A stretch of DNA of 64,000 nucleotides from Flammeovirgaceae bacterium (GTDB taxonomy: Bacteria > Bacteroidota > Bacteroidia > Cytophagales > Cyclobacteriaceae), in NCBI GenBank assembly GCA_021298355.1, contig JAJTEH010000004.1:1-64000 (forward strand), in the 5' to 3' direction. Each line of letters opens with the position of its first letter. Position 1 is the first letter of the stretch. Below, piece by piece: positions 30,980 to 39,947 of the stretch. A program made the translations under genes and the position numbers. The notes under the pieces were generated by a model, which was not told where the DNA came from, did not search any database, and worked only from the letters and a program-made list of their open reading frames with translations.

Positions 30980-33900
30980 TTATAGCATGCCATCTACTAT
31001 AACTTTACCCACCTCTAGTTTTACAACTTCCTCATTAAAAGGCTTTAGATACTCATTAACAATCTGGTTAAATTGAATTGTGTATCGTTCACTTTGTTTT
31101 TTTAGATCGTTAAATAAATCGTAGCAGCCTTGTGTAGGTTTTGCATCCTGGCCATTTATAACATCTACTAGCCATGCCCACTGGTCATCGAATTTAGGAG
31201 GATAATTGATTGGATCTTGCCCCGCCTGATGCTTGCTTTGAATTAGCGCATCTTCTAAAACAGTTAATTCTTTATCCAGACTTTCTTTTAAAGGCTGTAA
31301 AGTTTTTTCTTTACCAATTTGTTTTGCTCTCTCTAGTATATTTGCGCTTTGTTCGCGCATACTCCTAATCTTACGTACCCATATATGCACATTTTCTAAT
31401 TCTTTAGCGGCTTTTTGAGTTAGGGTATAGGCTTCGGCTAAATCCTGATCGGTACATTTCCAACGTGGATCTTTTTTTACAACTCCATTTTGTTTTAGTG
31501 TTGTTCCAGTATAAGTAAGGCTTACTACATATCCGCCACTAGGATATTTCGCGCCTTGTAAACTTGCCATTGAAAAATAAGACCCTGGCGTAATGGCTGG
31601 CCCTGTTGTATATAAATTCCACACAAAACGGTTAAATCCTTTTTTTACGGATAGCTTACTTTCTCGCTTTACCTCATCGGGGTGTGTGCTGTAGGTTCTG
31701 ACCAAATTGTTTTGGGTATCATAAAAGTGTAATTCTACTTTTTTTGTTTCATCATAATTTTCCGGTAATATAAAATCAATACTGGCACCATCGGGGGAAG
31801 GCGTTGGGGCAGCAGGCCCGTAAAATCCACCTAACTGTGTTCTATACGCTACAGAAGGTTGCATAAGTTGCAATTCTCTTTTTGCCGATAATTCATAAAG
31901 TGGTTGCAGGTTATCTAAAATCCAGAAGCTTCGTCCTTGTGTAGAAATAACCAGATCTTTGTTTTTTATAAGCAAATCGGTTATGGGCACATTGGGTAAG
32001 TTAAGCTGAAAACTTTGCCAAGTGGCGCCATCATTTAAAGATACGAACATGCCAAATTCAGTTCCGGCATAGAGTATACCCGGTACGTTGCTATCTTCTC
32101 TGGCTACACGCGTGGGGAAGTCGGCAGGAATTCCGGATGTAATAAGCTTCCATGTTTTACCATAATCTGTAGTTTGAAAAATATATGGTTTAAAAACGTT
32201 TAGTCTGTAGTTGTGCGCAGTAACCAGTATTTTTCCTTTTGTGTGTTTACTAAAATCAATACTGTTAATGGTGGCTAGTGCAGGCAGGCCTGGCAGAATT
32301 AATTTGTTCCAGTTTTTTCCGGCATCGGTAGAAATGTGCAGAAGCCCATCGTCTGATCCGGCCACCAATAATCCTTTTTCAATTGGCGATTCTTCGAATG
32401 CAAAAATGGTGGTGTAATTTTCTACACCGGTATAATCATGTTGTACGGGCCCACCCGGAATTTCCTGATAGGCTTTTGTGTTGGTTGTTAGATCCGGGCT
32501 TATTACCTCCCAGTTTAGGCCACCATCAGTAGAGCGATGAACAAATTGTGAGCAGTGATAAACGATGTTGGCATCGTGTGGAGAAACGCGTATAGGGGCA
32601 TTCCATTGAAACCGATATTTAACTTCGTAAAGCGGAAGTCCATCGTGCATTTGTGGATAGTGTGTAACGTATTGCATGTGTTCAGCAGCGCGATCGTAAC
32701 GCGTTAGTATTCCTGTATATTCTCCAGCATAAATGATGTTAGCATTTTCGTGATTAACGGCAACGTGCCCGGCCTCGCCACCACCCACGTGTAGCCAATC
32801 CATCTGGTAAGCTGTACCACCGCGTACTGCACTGGATACGGAAATAGAAGTATTATCTTGCTGGCAACCATATACCCGATAAGGAAACGCATTATCTACT
32901 GCAACCCGATAAATTTCTGCTGTTGGTTGGTTTTGCAGGGTACTCCACGATTTACCACCGGTATAACTTACATGTGCGCCACCATCGTTACTGTGAATCA
33001 TGATTCGGTTATCGTCTGGATTTATCCAAAGATCGTGGCAATCGCCATGTGTAACCGAAATTCTATCGAAGTGTAGCCCAGCGTTAGTTGATTTCCAGAA
33101 TGAAACATTATTTACGTATACAGTTTCTTCATCTTTTGGGTCGGCAAAAATTCTGGTGTAATACCAATGGCGGGTACGGAGCTCGCGATCGCCATTGATG
33201 CGCGTAAAGTTTTTACCGCCATCGTCTGACCGGTAAAGTCCACCTTTTTCGTTTACGGCTGCCTCGGCTAACACCCATATGCGTTGGCTATTAGCAGGCG
33301 ATATGGCTACACCAATTTTACCAAGCACACCGTTTGGTAAACCGTTGTTTAGTTTTTTCCACGTTACTCCTTCATCGGTAGAATGGTAAACACCACCTTC
33401 TTCGCTACCATCTATGGTTGTCCAGGGTTTTCGTTGAAACGTCCATGCGGCTGCAAGTAAAATGCGCGGATTATTTTTATCTAAAGAAACATCGATTACT
33501 CCGGTTTTATCGCTCAGGTATAAGATTTGATTCCATGTTTTACCACCATCGGTAGTTTTGTATACACCACGTTCTTTAGTAGGCCCGAACGGATTTCCTA
33601 ACACGGCCGCATATGCAATATGGGCATGTTGTGGGTGTACCTCTATTCTTCCGATTTGCCCTGCTTTCTCAAGGCCGCTAAAGCTCCATGTTTTGCCCTG
33701 ATCGCGCGACACATAAATTCCTTTGCCAATTGAAACATTTCCGCGCGGATCGGCCGAGCCGGTTCCAACATAAATTACATTTTCATCGCTGGGAGCAACA
33801 GCAATAGCTCCTATGCTTCCAACTGGTATTTGCCCATCGCTAATGTTGCGCCACGTTGTACCGCCATCATCGGTGCGCCATACACCACCACCGGTTGCAC

Positions 33901-34108
33901 CCATTAAAAATGTATAAGGCATAGTTGTAAACCCTGCAACGGCAGTGCTGCGGCCTCCGCGTGCCGGGCCAATGTTGCGATACGTTAAACCTTGTAACAA
34001 TTCGTTAACTCCTGTTATAGTGTTGGTTGGTATAGGTTTGGCTTTACTTTGGCTAAAAACAGGAATGAACAATACACTTAGTATAAGAGCAATAAATAAA
34101 CGCAGCAT
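30980..34108 (-). CDS. Secreted BNR/sortilin-like beta-propeller protein
   Basis: The 1042-residue product has a signal peptide (MLRLFIALILSVLFIPVFSQ) and at least ten Asp-box/BNR repeats, for example TDDGGTTWRNI, RDQGKTWSF, TDGGKTWNQI, TDEGVTWKKL, TDGGLNWEVI, TDAGKNWNKL and TDYGKTWKLI. These form one or two beta-propellers similar to VPS10/sortilin and xyloglucanase-type folds. The last 250 residues are a separate helical and beta domain. Related Bacteroidota proteins are often annotated as glycosyl hydrolases, but no catalytic acid pair can be assigned here. The ATG at 34108 was chosen because it starts the signal peptide. It is divergent from the DUF3857 pair. Confidence 0.85.
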   Translation of the reverse strand: MLRLFIALILSVLFIPVFSQSKAKPIPTNTITGVNELLQGLTYRNIGPARGGRSTAVAGFTTMPYTFLMGATGGGVWRTDDGGTTWRNISDGQIPVGSIGAIAVAPSDENVIYVGTGSADPRGNVSIGKGIYVSRDQGKTWSFSGLEKAGQIGRIEVHPQHAHIAYAAVLGNPFGPTKERGVYKTTDGGKTWNQILYLSDKTGVIDVSLDKNNPRILLAAAWTFQRKPWTTIDGSEEGGVYHSTDEGVTWKKLNNGLPNGVLGKIGVAISPANSQRIWVLAEAAVNEKGGLYRSDDGGKNFTRINGDRELRTRHWYYTRIFADPKDEETVYVNNVSFWKSTNAGLHFDRISVTHGDCHDLWINPDDNRIMIHSNDGGAHVSYTGGKSWSTLQNQPTAEIYRVAVDNAFPYRVYGCQQDNTSISVSSAVRGGTAYQMDWLHVGGGEAGHVAVNHENANIIYAGEYTGILTRYDRAAEHMQYVTHYPQMHDGLPLYEVKYRFQWNAPIRVSPHDANIVYHCSQFVHRSTDGGLNWEVISPDLTTNTKAYQEIPGGPVQHDYTGVENYTTIFAFEESPIEKGLLVAGSDDGLLHISTDAGKNWNKLILPGLPALATINSIDFSKHTKGKILVTAHNYRLNVFKPYIFQTTDYGKTWKLITSGIPADFPTRVAREDSNVPGILYAGTEFGMFVSLNDGATWQSFQLNLPNVPITDLLIKNKDLVISTQGRSFWILDNLQPLYELSAKRELQLMQPSVAYRTQLGGFYGPAAPTPSPDGASIDFILPENYDETKKVELHFYDTQNNLVRTYSTHPDEVKRESKLSVKKGFNRFVWNLYTTGPAITPGSYFSMASLQGAKYPSGGYVVSLTYTGTTLKQNGVVKKDPRWKCTDQDLAEAYTLTQKAAKELENVHIWVRKIRSMREQSANILERAKQIGKEKTLQPLKESLDKELTVLEDALIQSKHQAGQDPINYPPKFDDQWAWLVDVINGQDAKPTQGCYDLFNDLKKQSERYTIQFNQIVNEYLKPFNEEVVKLEVGKVIVDGML

Positions 34109-34266
34109 GGTGGTTTTGTTTAATGCTTGAAGGTACACAAGTAAACAACTTTATACAAAAAGGCCATTCTTAAAATTTAAATGAGAATATTATGCAGTAA
34201 ACTTTTTCTGAAAGAAATAAACTTTTTATTTTTGATAACTCGTACTTAACCTAAACATAAATACTA

Positions 34267-36216
34267 ATGAAACGGGCTCCTCTTATTCTAATTTGCTTAT
34301 TATATGTAAACCTGCAAATTGTTTTCGCGCAAAAGTCGCCTATCAAATTTGGCGAAATAAGCATGGAAGAAATGAATATGAACAGTTATCCGGCAGACTC
34401 TTCGGCTAATGCTGTTATACTATCAGAATTTGGTAAGGCTTACATTAGTGTAACCACCGTTTCAGCTAAGTTGTATTTTGAAAAACATGTGCGTATTAAA
34501 ATTTTAAAAAGCGAAGGCACAAGTTATTCTAACCAGGAAATTGCAGCATATCGTGCAGGGGCACAGTCTGAAGAAAGTATTACTAACCTTAAAGCTTCGT
34601 CATACAATTTGGTAAACGGCAAGATAGAAGAAACAAGAATGGGCAAAGATGCAGTTTACAAAAGCAAATTCAATAGAAACACAAGTCTTACCAAGTTTTC
34701 TATACCCAATGTAAAAGCAGGTTCAGTTATAGAGTATAGCTATACGTTACAATCAGATTTTCTAAGCAATTTTCCGAACTGGCAGTTTCAGCATGCCATA
34801 CCAACTATACATAGCGAATACGTGGCAGTTATACCGGAATTTTTTGTGATGGAAAAATATTCTCAAGGGTATGTTACACCTACATCGTACGAACCCAAAC
34901 AACGCACCCAATCGGATTACTACGAAACAGCCCACCATTGGATTTATAAAAATGTGCCAGCGTTTAAGCCCGAGCCATTTATGACTTCACAATCCGACTA
35001 TGTTTCGAAAATAAATTTTGCCTTGGCCTATATCAATTTCCCTCGCCAACCCCAACGCGAAATCATGGGATCATGGGAAAAACTAGTGGCAAACCTGAAG
35101 GAGTCAGAAGGCTTTGGCAAAATTGTTAAAGGCTCGGGTTATTTAAAGAAAACAGTTGAACCAATTATTGCAGGAAAAACAACCGATCTGGAAAAAGCAA
35201 TAGCCATACACGACTATGTAAAAAACACTATTGAGTGGGATGGCCAAGAAGATTATTTGGCAGAAAGCCCCAAGGATGTTTTAGAAAAAAAGAAGGGGAC
35301 CTCCGGAGACATTAATCTTTTACTGGCATCGATGTTGGAAAAAGCAGGCTTGCGCCCGGATATGATTTTGCTAAGCACACGCGACCACGGCTTTATCAGA
35401 AAGCCTTACCCAATGTCGAAGCAGTTTAATTATGTTGTTTGCCGATTGGCCATCGATAACGCTTATTGGTATTTAGATGCCACCGAACGTTTTATACCAA
35501 TAAACGTTTTGCCCGAAAGATGCTTAAATGGAGAGGGACTAATTGTTTCTGATGTTAACATGGGTTGGGTACCTTTACAAACCAGAACAAAATCCAAGAT
35601 CATCTTTAATGCAGATGTAAAAATTGAATCAGGCGAAAGCACAACCGGAACTATAACTAAGTTAAACGATGGTTATCGTGCACACGAAGCCAGAAGATTG
35701 CACAAAAGACTGGGTAAGGAAGAATACGCTAAAACAGTAAGCAATCGATTAAATTTATCAGTAGAAAATGTTTCCATTGAAGACGTTGAAAATATCGAAA
35801 AACCAGTAAAAGAAGTTTTCGAAATAAACGCAACGGATGCTATAACAGCCAACGACAATATCATTTACATTGATCCTCTATTTGGGCAACAATTAAAAGA
35901 GAATCCACTGAAGCAAGAAAAACGCGAGTATCCGGTAGACTACGGTAGCCCACAAGAAGAATTGTTTATCATAAAAATTCAAATACCCGAAGGGTACACG
36001 ATAGAAGAAATGCCACAATCTAAAATGTTTGTTTTGCCCGATAAGAGCGGGCGGTTTACATATAGTGTACAAAACACAGGCAATATAATCAACATCATGT
36101 CTAGTTTGCAGATTAACAGAACATTGTATGTAGGCGATGAATACCTGCATTTAAAGCAGTTTTATGCTCAGGTAATTGCAAAACAAAACGAGCAAATAGT
36201 TTTAAAGAAAAAGTAA
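34267..36216 (+). CDS. DUF3857/transglutaminase-like protein lacking the catalytic Cys and His
   Basis: The 649-residue secreted protein (signal MKRAPLILICLLYVNLQIVFAQ) has an N-terminal DUF3857 beta domain (about 50-270), a transglutaminase-like core (about 305-410) and a C-terminal DUF3858-like domain. Against its downstream paralogue the core shows S346 (KKGTSGDIN) where the catalytic Cys should be and Y389 (KQFNYVV) where the His should be. Only D404 (WYLDAT) remains. It is therefore probably not an active transglutaminase or protease and may bind a substrate or regulate its partner. The paralogue starts 1 nt after its stop. Confidence 0.88.
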   Translation: MKRAPLILICLLYVNLQIVFAQKSPIKFGEISMEEMNMNSYPADSSANAVILSEFGKAYISVTTVSAKLYFEKHVRIKILKSEGTSYSNQEIAAYRAGAQSEESITNLKASSYNLVNGKIEETRMGKDAVYKSKFNRNTSLTKFSIPNVKAGSVIEYSYTLQSDFLSNFPNWQFQHAIPTIHSEYVAVIPEFFVMEKYSQGYVTPTSYEPKQRTQSDYYETAHHWIYKNVPAFKPEPFMTSQSDYVSKINFALAYINFPRQPQREIMGSWEKLVANLKESEGFGKIVKGSGYLKKTVEPIIAGKTTDLEKAIAIHDYVKNTIEWDGQEDYLAESPKDVLEKKKGTSGDINLLLASMLEKAGLRPDMILLSTRDHGFIRKPYPMSKQFNYVVCRLAIDNAYWYLDATERFIPINVLPERCLNGEGLIVSDVNMGWVPLQTRTKSKIIFNADVKIESGESTTGTITKLNDGYRAHEARRLHKRLGKEEYAKTVSNRLNLSVENVSIEDVENIEKPVKEVFEINATDAITANDNIIYIDPLFGQQLKENPLKQEKREYPVDYGSPQEELFIIKIQIPEGYTIEEMPQSKMFVLPDKSGRFTYSVQNTGNIINIMSSLQINRTLYVGDEYLHLKQFYAQVIAKQNEQIVLKKK

Positions 36217-36217
36217 T

Positions 36218-38125
36218 ATGATCCGAAAACTAATTTTTCTCTTCGCTATAGTTTGCCTAAAGTATCAGGCACAAGCACAGGCAAATTATGCTGTAGATCT
36301 AATTCCTCCGGAGTTATTAAAAGATGCAAACGCAGTTTTTCGCGAAGATTATGCCACCTTCGAAATTATAGCGAAGGATGAAGCAATCTACAAAGTAAGG
36401 CAAGTGATTACCATTTTAAATTCTAATGCAAAATGGTGCGCCCAAAAAGTAGTAGGATACAGTAAAAATCTTAAAGTAGTTTCTTTTAAAGGCACTTCGT
36501 ACGATGCAAACGGAAAACAAATTAAAAGATTAAAGCAAAACGAAATTTATGATCAGAGTTCGTATGACGGTGCAGGATCCTACAGCGATAACCGATTAAA
36601 AGTTGGCGATTTATCTCACGGTAACTATCCTTATACGGTAGAGTGGGAATACGAACTCAAATTCAATTATTTGTTTATTATTCCCGGTTATAACTTCGGT
36701 GCGGAGTACATGTCGGCACAAAAAAGCAAATGCGAATTTATCTACCCGAAAGAACTAAAACCCAGATTTAAAACCTACAATCTGGATAAAGCCCCAACTG
36801 TTACTACTGTAAACGGTAAAGAAGTTACCTCCTGGGAAGTAGAAAACTTAGCCACACATAAACCAGAACCTTTTTCTCCTAATCACGAAAAAATAATTCC
36901 TATTATACGAGCCGCACCCAATACATTTAAGTTCGACTCTTACGAAGGCGAAATGCAAGATTGGAATGAGTTAGGAAATTGGATAGCAAGATTAAATGAG
37001 GGCAAGCAAACCCTGCCACAAAAAACAATAAATGAAGTAAAAGAGCTTACAAAATCTTTACCGACTACCGAACAAAAAATACAAGCGGTGTATCAATACA
37101 TGCAGGGCAAAACAAGATATGTTTCTATACAATTTGGGATCGGAGGATTTCAGCCCATTGATGCCGTTACAGTAGATCAGGCCGGCTATGGCGATTGTAA
37201 GGCTCTATCTAACTATATGGTGGCTTTGCTAAAAGAAGTGGGTATTAAAGCAAATTATGTGCTGATCGAAGCCGGTAAAAACGCTGACGAATTAGATACC
37301 ACGTTCCCTAGTTCACAGTTTAATCATGCAGTTGTATGTGTGCCTACTGCTAAAGATACCGTTTGGTTAGAATGTACCAGCCAGAGTAATCCTATGGGAT
37401 ACATGGGCTCTTTTACAGGAAACAGAAAAGCATTAGCCATTACCGACACCGGTGCAGAAATTGTAAGCACACCTGTTTATACCGAAAACGAAAACCTGCA
37501 ATCACGTCTGGCAAATGTTAAAATAGACGAAACGGGGAATGCAACAGCAGATGTAAAAACACATTACTTTGCACTACAATACGAAAGCGACAACTTGAAT
37601 TTCTTTCTCAACAACCAGTATGATGAACAAAAGAAATGGATTCAGGATAATACAGATATACCCAATTTCAGTCTTAAAAACTTTAAAGTTACCGAAGTAA
37701 AAGATGTAATACCGGCTGCCATAGTAGAGCTTTCGTTAGAGCTTAACAAACTTGCCAATGTAAGTGGCAAGCGGATGTTCATCACGCCCAACCTGATGAA
37801 TCGCTTTAGCCAGGCGCCACCACCAACCACAGAAAGAAGGTATCCTGTAATGCGCAACATGGCATACACAGATATCGATACCATTCGTTTTCAGTTTCCT
37901 GAAAATTTATACCCAGAGTTTATTCCTAAACCTACAAAAATTGAATCGGAATTTGGTGTGTACGAAAACAGCTACAGTATGGACGAGGGTAGCTTAGTAT
38001 ATGTACGAAAACTGATTATGAAAAAAGGAAATTTTCCTGCAGGGAGTTATAACAACATGGTTAGTTTTTATAAAGCAATAATAAAAGCTGATAATGCAAA
38101 ATTAGTATTGTTAAATAAAACCTGA
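36218..38125 (+). CDS. DUF3857/transglutaminase-like protein with intact Cys-His pair
   Basis: The 635-residue paralogue of the preceding gene has a signal peptide (MIRKLIFLFAIVCLKYQAQAQ) and the same domain order. The transglutaminase-like core keeps C327 (AGYGDCKALS) and H370 (SQFNHAVV); the third position is E385 in WLECTS rather than Asp, a variant seen in this family. It may act on peptide or isopeptide bonds in the periplasm, though no substrate is known. It is 1 nt from the upstream gene and 2 bp from the stop of the convergent SDR gene. Confidence 0.88.
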   Translation: MIRKLIFLFAIVCLKYQAQAQANYAVDLIPPELLKDANAVFREDYATFEIIAKDEAIYKVRQVITILNSNAKWCAQKVVGYSKNLKVVSFKGTSYDANGKQIKRLKQNEIYDQSSYDGAGSYSDNRLKVGDLSHGNYPYTVEWEYELKFNYLFIIPGYNFGAEYMSAQKSKCEFIYPKELKPRFKTYNLDKAPTVTTVNGKEVTSWEVENLATHKPEPFSPNHEKIIPIIRAAPNTFKFDSYEGEMQDWNELGNWIARLNEGKQTLPQKTINEVKELTKSLPTTEQKIQAVYQYMQGKTRYVSIQFGIGGFQPIDAVTVDQAGYGDCKALSNYMVALLKEVGIKANYVLIEAGKNADELDTTFPSSQFNHAVVCVPTAKDTVWLECTSQSNPMGYMGSFTGNRKALAITDTGAEIVSTPVYTENENLQSRLANVKIDETGNATADVKTHYFALQYESDNLNFFLNNQYDEQKKWIQDNTDIPNFSLKNFKVTEVKDVIPAAIVELSLELNKLANVSGKRMFITPNLMNRFSQAPPPTTERRYPVMRNMAYTDIDTIRFQFPENLYPEFIPKPTKIESEFGVYENSYSMDEGSLVYVRKLIMKKGNFPAGSYNNMVSFYKAIIKADNAKLVLLNKT

Positions 38126-38127
38126 TG

Positions 38128-38934
38128 TTACCGCAAGGGAGAGTCCGGCTCTTTGGCCATAAAATTGTACGTGATTTTATCCATAGTGCCGGGCATCCAT
38201 TTGCTTAACCACACAGCCAATTTTCCCTGAAACGTTAAAATTAAATCGCGTTTACGCGCAACAACGGCCCTGTATATGTGTTGGGCGGTTTCTTCGGCAC
38301 TCATCATTTTTTGCTCTTCCCGTGGCGATTCGCCCTGCACAGAACCATCGGCTGTTAGTGCAGTGTTCCGAATGTTTGATGCTGTAAAGCCCGGACAAAC
38401 CGAAAGTACATGAACACCTTTTTTCATTACTTCCATTCGCAAGGCTTCTAAAAAACCTTCCATCGCATATTTAGAAGCTGAATACGCGCTTCGCGCAGGG
38501 GTAGCCCGCCTTCCGTTAATTGACGATATACCCACTACAGAACCTTTTGCCTGTAAGATATAAGGCAACGCATACTTTGTGCAATACACAGTTCCGTAAA
38601 AATTAATATCCATTACTTTTTTAAAAACAGAAAGTTCAATATCCTGAAACAGTGCTCGCATAGAAATACCTGCGTTGTTAATCAGAATATCCAACACACC
38701 AAAATAAGATACGGTTTCGTTTACCATGCGTTTTGCATCTTCTTCACGGCTAACATCACCTGCAATAGCTACACAAGCAATACCTGCTTTTACAAGATCT
38801 TCTTTTACTTCGTTCAATTCTTTTTCTCTTCGGGCTGTTATAGCCACTCTACAACCCATACGGCCAAACTCAAAAGCTAGTGCCTTTCCTATACCGGATG
38901 TTGCACCTGTTATTAATACTACTTTATTTTTCAT
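38128..38934 (-). CDS. Short-chain dehydrogenase/reductase
   Basis: The 268-residue classical SDR has the cofactor motif TGATSGIG at 9-16, NNAG, the catalytic Ser in GISSIN and the YSASK active-site motif. The C-terminal segment (KLAVWLSKWMPGTMDKIT) is hydrophobic, as in DHRS7-like membrane-associated SDRs. The substrate is unknown; a lipid or ketone is plausible given the adjacent acyltransferase. The ATG at 38934 starts the Rossmann strand directly, whereas a start at 39024 would add 30 unlikely residues. It is divergent from the LpxL-like gene. Confidence 0.88.
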   Translation of the reverse strand: MKNKVVLITGATSGIGKALAFEFGRMGCRVAITARREKELNEVKEDLVKAGIACVAIAGDVSREEDAKRMVNETVSYFGVLDILINNAGISMRALFQDIELSVFKKVMDINFYGTVYCTKYALPYILQAKGSVVGISSINGRRATPARSAYSASKYAMEGFLEALRMEVMKKGVHVLSVCPGFTASNIRNTALTADGSVQGESPREEQKMMSAEETAQHIYRAVVARKRDLILTFQGKLAVWLSKWMPGTMDKITYNFMAKEPDSPLR

Positions 38935-39056
38935 GTGGTGTGTATAATCGAAAATTTTAATAAGCATCGGTTTGCATTGGGGTAAGGCAAAATCAATACT
39001 TTGTTTGAGCAGCCAAAAATACAAATACTTGCTTAACTTGGAGCATTTAAAGCGTT

Positions 39057-39947
39057 ATGCTCCTGATCAGGCTTTTTGCAAAATTACCTTTGCGTGTTTT
39101 ATACGTGATTGCGGATTGTTTTTTTGTTGTTGGTTATTACGCAGTAGGGTACCGAAGAAAAATGATTCGTAAGAATTTGGCGAATTCTTTCCCCGGCAAA
39201 AGTGTGGAGGAACTGGCCATAATAGAAAAGCAATTTTTTAGAAACCTGTGCGATTACGCAGTCGAAACCATTAAGTTACTTTCATTATCAGAAGTTGAAA
39301 TCAAAAACAGAATGAAGTTTACCAATGCTTCTGTTCTTCAAGAGTATGCCAGCAAAAATCAATCGGTTATTCTGTTATCATCGCATCAGTTTAATTGGGA
39401 GTGGCTTTTGGTTTCGGGTACAATAAGCCTGCCTATGAAAATCGATTTTGTTTATCAGGCAGTGCAAAATAAGTTTTTCGATAATGTAATGCTTGCTATA
39501 CGTTCGCGCTTTGGTGCATATCCGATAGAACGCTATCAAGTAGCACGCGAAATAGTAAAACGCAAAAACATAGTTAGAGCAACAGCTATTGTGGCAGATC
39601 AGTATCCGGGGCACAACGATAAATACTTCTGCACAAAATTTTTGAATCAGGAAACAGCATTCTTCTTTGGTTTGCAACAGATGGCCACCCTTATGCAATA
39701 CCCTGTATTTTATGCATCGGTAGTAAAATTAAAACGCGGATATTATTCGGTAACGCTATTGCCTTGTGGCCAACCTCCATATGCAAAAGACGATGTATCT
39801 GTTCTGAAAGCATATGTAAAAGGAATTGAAAGCTCTATTTCGCAACAACCTGCTAATTGGTTGTGGTCTCACAACAGATGGAAACAACGACACTTAGAAA
39901 AAAAACATCTCGAAGTGTTAGAAACCAACACAAACGAACAGGCATAA
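39057..39947 (+). CDS. LpxL/HtrB-family lipid A-type acyltransferase
   Basis: The 296-residue inner-membrane enzyme has an N-terminal hydrophobic anchor (LRVLYVIADCFFVVGYYAVG) and the HX4E catalytic motif H110-x4-E115 (SSHQFNWEW) of the late acyltransferases that add secondary acyl chains to lipid A. The Arg/Lys-rich YRRKMIRKNL segment after the anchor is typical. Bacteroidota commonly have one such enzyme acting on penta-acyl lipid A. The acyl donor is unknown; the stand-alone KAS III-like gene 447 bp downstream could supply unusual acyl chains, but this is only proximity. Confidence 0.88.
   Translation: MLLIRLFAKLPLRVLYVIADCFFVVGYYAVGYRRKMIRKNLANSFPGKSVEELAIIEKQFFRNLCDYAVETIKLLSLSEVEIKNRMKFTNASVLQEYASKNQSVILLSSHQFNWEWLLVSGTISLPMKIDFVYQAVQNKFFDNVMLAIRSRFGAYPIERYQVAREIVKRKNIVRATAIVADQYPGHNDKYFCTKFLNQETAFFFGLQQMATLMQYPVFYASVVKLKRGYYSVTLLPCGQPPYAKDDVSVLKAYVKGIESSISQQPANWLWSHNRWKQRHLEKKHLEVLETNTNEQA

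Follow-up and report, generated by a model that had tools for sequence, protein, structure and literature searches.

A predicted transglutaminase-like enzyme and its catalytically dead paralogue are encoded side by side across Bacteroidota

The window, a stretch of 64,000 nucleotides from a Flammeovirgaceae bacterium, carries two adjacent paralogous genes, termed A and B throughout, of which B encodes a predicted active transglutaminase-like enzyme and A a relative without the catalytic Cys and His. There is good support for A being a pseudoenzyme that is kept by selection and linked to B. A-type genes adjoined B-type genes in 138 of 148 B loci from Bacteroidota, Cys and His occurred together in 0 of 185 A homologues versus 148 of 148 B homologues, and all 30 genomes with B in a phylum sample also contained A. 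The enzyme/pseudoenzyme pair proposed by the first-pass annotation was supported by these data. With moderate confidence we regard A and B as one functional unit, in which B would be an exported cysteine peptidase or transglutaminase-like enzyme and A its dedicated dead paralogue and non-catalytic subunit.

Table 1. Positions of the two genes and of their catalytic or equivalent codons in the window.
Feature	Position	Strand	Remarks
Gene A, 649 aa	34267..36216	+	DUF3857 / transglutaminase-fold / DUF3858-like, export signal; without catalytic Cys and His; pseudoenzyme
A Ser346 codon	35302..35304	+	Nucleophile Cys position; both alignments and AlphaFold model
A Tyr389 codon	35431..35433	+	Catalytic His position; both alignments and AlphaFold model
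A Asp404 codon	35476..35478	+	Third triad position, retained; Asp in 180/185 A homologues
Gene B, 635 aa	36218..38125	+	DUF3857 / transglutaminase-fold, export signal; Cys-His-Glu; predicted active enzyme
B Cys327 codon	37196..37198	+	Predicted nucleophile; Cys in 148/148 B homologues
B His370 codon	37325..37327	+	Predicted base; His in 148/148 B homologues
B Glu385 codon	37370..37372	+	Third triad residue; Glu in 147 and Asp in 1 of 148 B homologues

Both genes are read in the same direction, with a single base between the TAA of A and the ATG of B, and they are probably expressed from a shared transcript. Both proteins scored above the Pfam curated cut-offs (24.6 bits for DUF3857, PF12969; 23 for Transglut_core, PF01841), A with 27.9 and 33.5 bits, B with 78.8 and 31.9 bits. 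The earlier description as a tandem DUF3857 transglutaminase pair 1 nt apart was confirmed by these matches and by the ORF coordinates. BLASTP of A against B gave an alignment of 639 columns with 21% identity (E 1e-12). In the AlphaFold model of A an N-terminal helix (4-21), taken as the signal sequence, is followed by folded soluble domains, the C-terminal part consisting mostly of strands. A lipobox was absent from both window proteins and, judged by this and the signal sequences, both are predicted to be periplasmic.

When the two families were aligned profile against profile (E 2.4e-54, 612 columns), S346 of A matched C327 of B, Y389 matched H370 and D404 matched E385, and a joint MAFFT alignment of A and B yielded the same three column matches. 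In the AlphaFold models S346 and C327 each start a core helix (346-359 and 327-340), Y389 and H370 each open the next core strand (389-396 and 370-376), and D404 and E385 each come after the third strand. A single-pair BLASTP was off by three residues in register at the Cys, placing C327 opposite I349, with A still lacking a Cys there. The by-eye alignment of the first-pass annotation, with C327 and H370 of B opposite S346 and Y389 of A, was thus borne out by the profile-profile and MAFFT alignments and by the models. Of its statement on the third residue the retained Asp of A (D404) stood, while B was found to have Glu385 instead of Asp. According to PMC10318531, the third residue is canonically Asn, Gln, Asp or Glu. 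By its residues (C327, H370, E385) B is a putative active transglutaminase-like or papain-like enzyme; A, with S346 and Y389 and no homologue carrying the dyad, does not belong to this class.

At the nucleophile position the 185 A homologues showed Ser (57), Val (46), Ala (42), Gly (7), Cys (2) and other residues, and at the catalytic His position Tyr (139) and His (18). Both Cys-bearing proteins have Tyr at the His site, and none of the 18 His-keeping proteins has the Cys. The trait conserved throughout the A family is the near-universal absence of the Cys, not the specific Ser and Tyr. Ser as substitute nucleophile in A was ruled out because the site varies in this way and ranks only 380 of 646 positions in conservation. 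Sequencing error or pseudogene decay of A was also ruled out, because 183 of 185 homologues lack the Cys and dN/dS amounted to 0.04-0.27 in four measurable comparisons; the earlier judgement that a sequencing error is unlikely was upheld by the same values. Of 13 close comparisons these four were usable, dS being unsaturated for both genes, and gave dN/dS values for A versus B of 0.044 versus 0.053, 0.117 versus 0.070, 0.273 versus 0.173, and 0.147 versus 0.130. In these four comparisons A is under purifying selection. In two of the 13, A had diverged far more than B (identity 42 versus 65% and 37 versus 64%).

Conservation of B was highest in the catalytic core (0.541 versus 0.364 elsewhere), and that of A was even (core 0.398 versus 0.369 elsewhere). 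At the edge of the cleft, A residues Asn350 (181/185), Ser370 (177/185), Gly375 (181/185) and Asp404 (180/185) were conserved, likewise Thr371 and Arg372. One explanation would be that A acts as an enzyme through an active site that has moved or is of another kind, for example H374/C419 of the window copy or the set Asn350/Ser370/Arg372/Asp404. Cys occupies position 419 in 110 of the 145 A proteins that have a residue at this site, the secondary structure and strand order of the model would place H374 and C419 on loops at the edge of the old-site sheet, and papain-like folds can shift catalytic residues according to PMC10318531. The same paper, however, states that in papain-like peptidases the core helix invariably carries the Cys at its N terminus. 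Moreover, the combination of His374 and Cys419 is present in 49 of 112 paired A proteins, and residue 374 is Asn in many A proteins and His in just 88 of 185, so that H374/C419 constitutes no conserved relocated dyad. We consider a relocated site improbable.

The same adjacent pair, one member with and one without Cys and His, was sought in other Bacteroidota and found in the 138 loci mentioned above, using A of at least 450 aa at a distance of at most 400 nt from B as cutoff. The median gap was 3 nt and 46 pairs overlapped, with gene starts set mechanically for these measurements. The order was A-B in 118 and B-A in 20 loci. Three B genes had no neighbouring A, and in each of these genomes A was encoded elsewhere. 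The DUF3857 places taken in comprised the pairs and most singletons, and the counts were made after dropping family ORFs shorter than 450 aa and ORFs with A and B scores less than twofold apart (C- and D-types). Among the dropped short ORFs were the shorter pieces of split A (L073, L074) and split B (L052) genes and short A genes at contig starts (L126, L129, L133); of the 80 named loci, L073 and L074 were the two with a split A frame. Two or three A copies adjoin one B in many loci. Nor is the pair universal in the group, since 16 out of 60 genomes from the same family gave no match to DUF3857 at E 0.1. The tandem arrangement is old and maintained, and the retention of A and B side by side across the phylum points to a dependence of the enzyme on its dead partner.

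For the phylum sample of 118 genomes, scoring took in no more than 10 first-look candidates from each genome. A without B was found in 4 of 34 genomes, and 84 genomes had neither at the thresholds used (Fisher p 5e-24 for co-occurrence, uncorrected for ancestry). With A in 30 of 30 B genomes and the exceptions traced, the dead paralogue accompanies the enzyme in every B genome of this sample, as expected for systems of the prozyme kind. Extra unlinked A copies exist, one of them in this genome, and together with the genomes having A without B they indicate that A-type proteins can work on their own. A might then be independent of B, its old cleft serving as a periplasmic binding site for peptides or glycans, and adjoin B since both serve one pathway. 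The conserved cleft-edge residues fit a ligand site (or own chemistry), and dead transglutaminase domains in toxins were proposed as peptide-binding anchors in PMC3482391. In the 118 genomes and the traced exceptions, however, B always came with an A somewhere in the genome, contrary to what a loose pathway link would lead one to expect, and we judge independence unlikely. A restraining role, with A as inhibitory subunit or as competitor for substrate, would draw on the same genetic data as the joint functional unit, and a dead fold could bind the substrate of B. Yet an inhibitor is usually dispensable for the existence of an enzyme, while every B genome of the sample also had A; such a role appears hardly probable.

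In the favoured enzyme-pseudoenzyme unit, B would act via Cys327-His370-Glu385 as periplasmic cysteine peptidase or transglutaminase-like enzyme, A and B would assemble in the periplasm, presumably as a heterodimer, and A would be the prozyme-like non-catalytic subunit required by B for folding, activation or substrate capture. In this explanation, the direction of control and the kind of substrate are what we infer.

The A and B distances of the 138 pairs were correlated (r 0.84, uncorrected for the species tree), and two B subclades with B-A order corresponded in the tree to two A subclades from the same loci. In a tree of 50 of 116 rows, four long-branched rows being deliberately excluded, all A proteins (A1, A2, orphans) formed one group with support 100 and all B proteins one with support 99. 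Independent loss of the triad in each pair via recent duplication was ruled out because A and B each form one group. This genome also has a second pair of enzyme and dead paralogue (C-D), in the opposite order, and the same holds for 15 of the 16 loci of that type that were retrieved. A and D fell on one side of a branch with support 95, and a grouping of C with D was not rejected (p-AU 0.378). A tentative and rather doubtful generalization would be that the tandem DUF3857 transglutaminase systems of Bacteroidota are obligate enzyme-pseudoenzyme heteromers, in which the catalytic subunit (Cys-His-Glu) depends on a dead partner in which the old active site persists as a cleft for substrate or signal binding; this design would have arisen or been retained in two or more lineages of pairs (A-B and C-D).

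Among known structures, 3KD4 (Parabacteroides distasonis BDI_1141, 'putative protease') was the only chain retrieved with the family profiles and the only full-length fold match; PDB searches with the single A or B sequences gave chance-level matches only. It shares its fold over the whole length with A (VIA Z 20.3, rmsd 4.8, 482 aligned) and B (Z 27.0, rmsd 3.8, 488 aligned), yet at 13-14% identity. At the triad places weak profile alignments put Pro, Thr and Ser, hence no Cys, His or acidic residue, suggesting that 3KD4 itself is probably not an active family member. Among the closest bacterial core folds was LapG (4fgo, 4fgq), a periplasmic cysteine protease, matching B with Z 11.4 and rmsd 3.2 and A with Z 10.2 and rmsd 3.6 (133 aligned each). 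Neither A nor B had a Pfam match to the LapG/C93 peptidase family at E 0.01, the likeness being one of fold. LapG is a single domain and, to our knowledge, has neither a DUF3857 domain nor a dead partner.

AdoMetDC and its prozyme are unrelated to A and B in fold and organism, and orthocaspases belong to another superfamily. Trypanosoma AdoMetDC likewise combines an enzyme with a catalytically dead paralogue, the prozyme, on which it depends; activation and heterodimer were demonstrated there (PMC5201418, abstract), while for A-B they are proposed. In bacterial pseudo-orthocaspases, cysteine-peptidase homologues like A, Tyr and Ser replace the His-Cys dyad; unlike A, they are the sole orthocaspase of the genome in most unicellular Cyanobacteria, and the word "operon" is absent from the paper text (PMC6426788). 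The transglutaminase fold is shared by inactive bacterial proteins, namely RloB of Pseudomonas (PMC12239564), HM2192 (PMC12096838) and N-terminal domains of polymorphic toxins (PMC3482391), which according to the accessible parts of these papers have lost triad residues and face the periplasm or the outside, as predicted for A, but are fused to seven membrane helices or toxins; these parts describe no active transglutaminase paralogue next door. The AlphaFold model of A contains no seven membrane helices of the RloB kind.

Well-studied pseudoenzyme partners are mostly eukaryotic. A-B offers a widespread bacterial case with 138 natural pairs at hand, and makes the role of a dead paralogue for its live partner directly testable. 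A literature search found DUF3857 mentioned once, in passing, and neither DUF3858 nor either of the Pfam accessions. Caution is advisable in this phylum, as many matches to the transglutaminase model lack catalytic residues, probably including the sole solved structure, 3KD4.

Neighbours were mixed in 100 loci of A-B order, the commonest families being present in 21, 17, 16 and 16 loci. Judged by eye, two of them lie on the opposite strand, putatively RadA (upstream) and a short-chain dehydrogenase (downstream); the two on the same strand, both downstream, would be a ClpB-like and a lipid A acyltransferase-like protein. A third gene common to most of these 100 loci was not found, and a wider operon was rejected. 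The dehydrogenase and acyltransferase-like neighbours resemble Pfam-named genes of the window. A sigma-70 scan gave 9 sites versus 12.5 expected. No natural A-B fusion occurred among the fetched family ORFs longer than 760 aa. One family protein of 1257 aa consists of TPR repeats followed by a single DUF3857-transglutaminase unit.

Genes A and B lie in tandem on the forward strand with a single base between them, and their products share 21% identity along their length (BLASTP). A DUF3858 match in A remained below the Pfam threshold. The first-pass annotation had described a transglutaminase pair in which the first copy lacks the catalytic Cys and His, and the residues it named (S346, Y389 and D404 of A; C327 and H370 of B) were found to be correct. 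Profile-profile alignment, a joint MAFFT alignment and AlphaFold models (mean pLDDT 92.7 for A, 91.4 for B) all placed S346, Y389 and D404 opposite C327, H370 and E385; single-sequence BLASTP of A versus B was shifted by three residues around the Cys. The third triad residue of B is a Glu, a point absent from that annotation. It is directly followed by a second Cys, C386, a position occupied by Cys in 133 of 148 B-type proteins (homologues of B).

Features of the window and of retrieved loci (L-numbers; their coordinates count within the locus stretch)
Feature	Location	Strand	Description
Sortilin/Vps10 gene	window 30980-34138	-	1052-aa BNR-repeat protein, divergently transcribed, adjoining the A-B pair
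Gene A	window 34267-36216	+	649 aa; DUF3857 and Transglut_core above Pfam cut-offs
Gene B	window 36218-38125	+	635 aa; DUF3857 and Transglut_core above Pfam cut-offs
C386 of B	window 37373-37375	+	second Cys
Genes downstream of the pair	window 38128-39947	-, +	short-chain dehydrogenase (-), lipid A acyltransferase-like (+)
C	L006 4798-6771		Cys-His-Asp protein
D	L006 2852-4798		paralogue without any triad residue
C-D pair	L006 2852-6771		downstream of gene for a 1079-aa TPR/MORN-repeat protein
Lone A-type gene	L007 2952-4940		Val for Cys, Tyr for His; no adjoining B
TPR fusion	L049 1964-5737		DUF3857-transglutaminase unit C-terminal to TPR repeats
B loci outside the 138 pairs	L126, L129, L133		adjoining A of 224-356 aa at or near contig start
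	L074		adjoining A split
	L027		A of 481 aa, 538 nt from B
	L107		cut A ends just upstream of B at contig edge; contig identified via B match
	L088		A upstream, same strand, one ORF in between
	L091, L094, L145		no adjoining A; A elsewhere in all three genomes

Three samples were compared. A DUF3857 model search of 60 genomes of the same family gave matches in 44 of them, and 60 stretches were retrieved. The alignment of B yielded 80 named loci, which are biased to near relatives because they are the 80 top-scoring ones among at least 587. The third sample comprised 118 genomes across the phylum, the window's own genome counted, with 40 stretches retrieved. Residues were counted in 185 A-type proteins, each 450 aa or longer, and in 148 B-type proteins (184 and 147 distinct at 95% identity). 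At the Cys position the A-type proteins carry Ser (57), Val (46), Ala (42), Gly (7), others in smaller numbers and Cys only twice; at the His position Tyr dominates (139) over His (18) and rarer residues, while Asp is kept in 180. His retention is concentrated in a single family, f21, of the phylum sample (L151, L156, L161, L162, L165-L167, L169). Cys and His together occurred in none of the 185. The B-type proteins all carry both, with Glu in 147 and a single Asp (L153) at the third position. On these counts the absent Cys is a near-constant trait of the A-type; Tyr and Ser are common, not fixed.

The same adjacent pair of one member with and one without the Cys-His dyad, which the first-pass annotation had proposed to look for in other Bacteroidota, was recovered: an A of at least 450 aa on the same strand and within 400 nt of B was present at 138 of 148 B loci, including one with a split A (L073). 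The order was A-B in 118 and B-A in 20. With start codons assigned mechanically, the median gap was 3 nt, at most 30 nt in 115 pairs, and the genes overlapped in 46. Each of the 30 further B loci retrieved from the phylum sample had an adjoining A without the Cys. Among the 118 genomes, B was found above 400 bits in 30 (31 places) and A above 300 bits in 34, thresholds chosen after viewing the lists, with E limits differing between searches. All 30 B genomes were among the 34; four (G088, G101, G140, G167) had A and no B above threshold. Matches below the B threshold included five solo Cys-His-Asp DUF3857 proteins (L178-L181, L185), with no second family member detectable in their retrieved stretches.

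A second tandem pair of opposite order, an active C followed by a dead D sharing one base, was found on contig 33 of the same genome (L006). Cys, His and Asp were present in 16 of 16 C-type proteins, and 15 of the 16 loci had a D-type neighbour downstream; at the sixteenth (L028) a D fragment further on was all that was detected. In 17 D-type ORFs, whose alignment is uncertain at these places and three of which are too short or gapped there, the triad columns held no Cys, no Asp and one His. Together with the lone A-type gene on contig 53 (L007), the genome encodes five DUF3857 proteins: two predicted to be catalytic, each with an adjoining dead paralogue, and one further dead one. Open frames of 1250-1280 aa in the phylum sample may share the TPR-DUF3857-transglutaminase architecture of L049, a single long protein.

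A tree of 116 rows separated the active types (B in either order, C) from the dead types (A, D) with a local support of 97. A 50-row mixture-model tree supported A (100), B (99), C (100), D (99) and the dead/active split (95); for the same 50 rows an alternative grouping C with D was not rejected (p-AU 0.378). The 12 B loci with B-A order in the 116-row tree split into two six-member subclades, and the adjoining A genes into two that match them locus for locus; therefore, pairs duplicated and diverged as pairs. Distances of A and B correlated over the 138 pairs (r 0.84, permuted maximum 0.14), a value still including the species-tree signal. In the 4 of 13 comparisons that were not saturated, dN/dS was low for both genes. 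In some comparisons A had diverged further than B, with a strong difference in L096/L104 and L139/L148; in others it had diverged less. The catalytic core is the best-conserved region of B. In A conservation is even, with the top positions W270, Y626, Y159, W172 and P179 outside the core, and Asn350, Asn388, Asp404 and Gly375 of the old cleft within the top 20. This pattern fits a scaffold that was retained to bind something and no longer to carry out the old chemistry.

The only good full-length fold match for both models was 3KD4, deposited as a putative protease and the sole solved structure found with this architecture; in weak profile alignments all three catalytic residues are apparently absent from it. 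The DUF3857 domain resembles the oligosaccharyltransferase subunit ribophorin I/Ost1 and the N-domain of M1 aminopeptidases. The cores of both models resemble LapG, animal transglutaminases and erythrocyte protein 4.2; the B core also resembles PNGase and Rad4. According to PMC10318531, protein 4.2 (EPB42) is inactive, as is the Rad4 domain. A common fold by itself gives no proof of function for A or B.

Both proteins carry an N-terminal export signal with likely cleavage before Gln, as in the Bacteroidetes Q-rule (PMC10653852); a crude Q-rule pattern matched 156 of 185 A-type and only 75 of 148 B-type proteins. Given these signals and lipobox-like sites in just 2 of 185 A-type and 0 of 148 B-type proteins, a location in the periplasm or at the cell surface is likely. 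B is a predicted thiol enzyme. A, probably co-produced with it, keeps the fold, has no residues for B's chemistry and occurred in every case where B did. The simplest model is an A-B heteromer whose A subunit B would require for folding, activation or substrate supply. As B was not seen without A, while A sometimes occurred without B, the gene distribution favours A helping rather than inhibiting B. That A and B touch, and that this affects activity, is what we infer from their co-occurrence. Active/dead paralogue pairs are already a known kind, for example the prozyme, the dead paralogue on which AdoMetDC depends (PMC5201418). The A-B pair itself appears undescribed, as judged from a literature search that found no account of it and had most subscription papers outside its coverage.

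Clusters resembling the dehydrogenase and the acyltransferase-like protein of the window were found downstream in 17 and 16, respectively, of 100 loci with A-B order.
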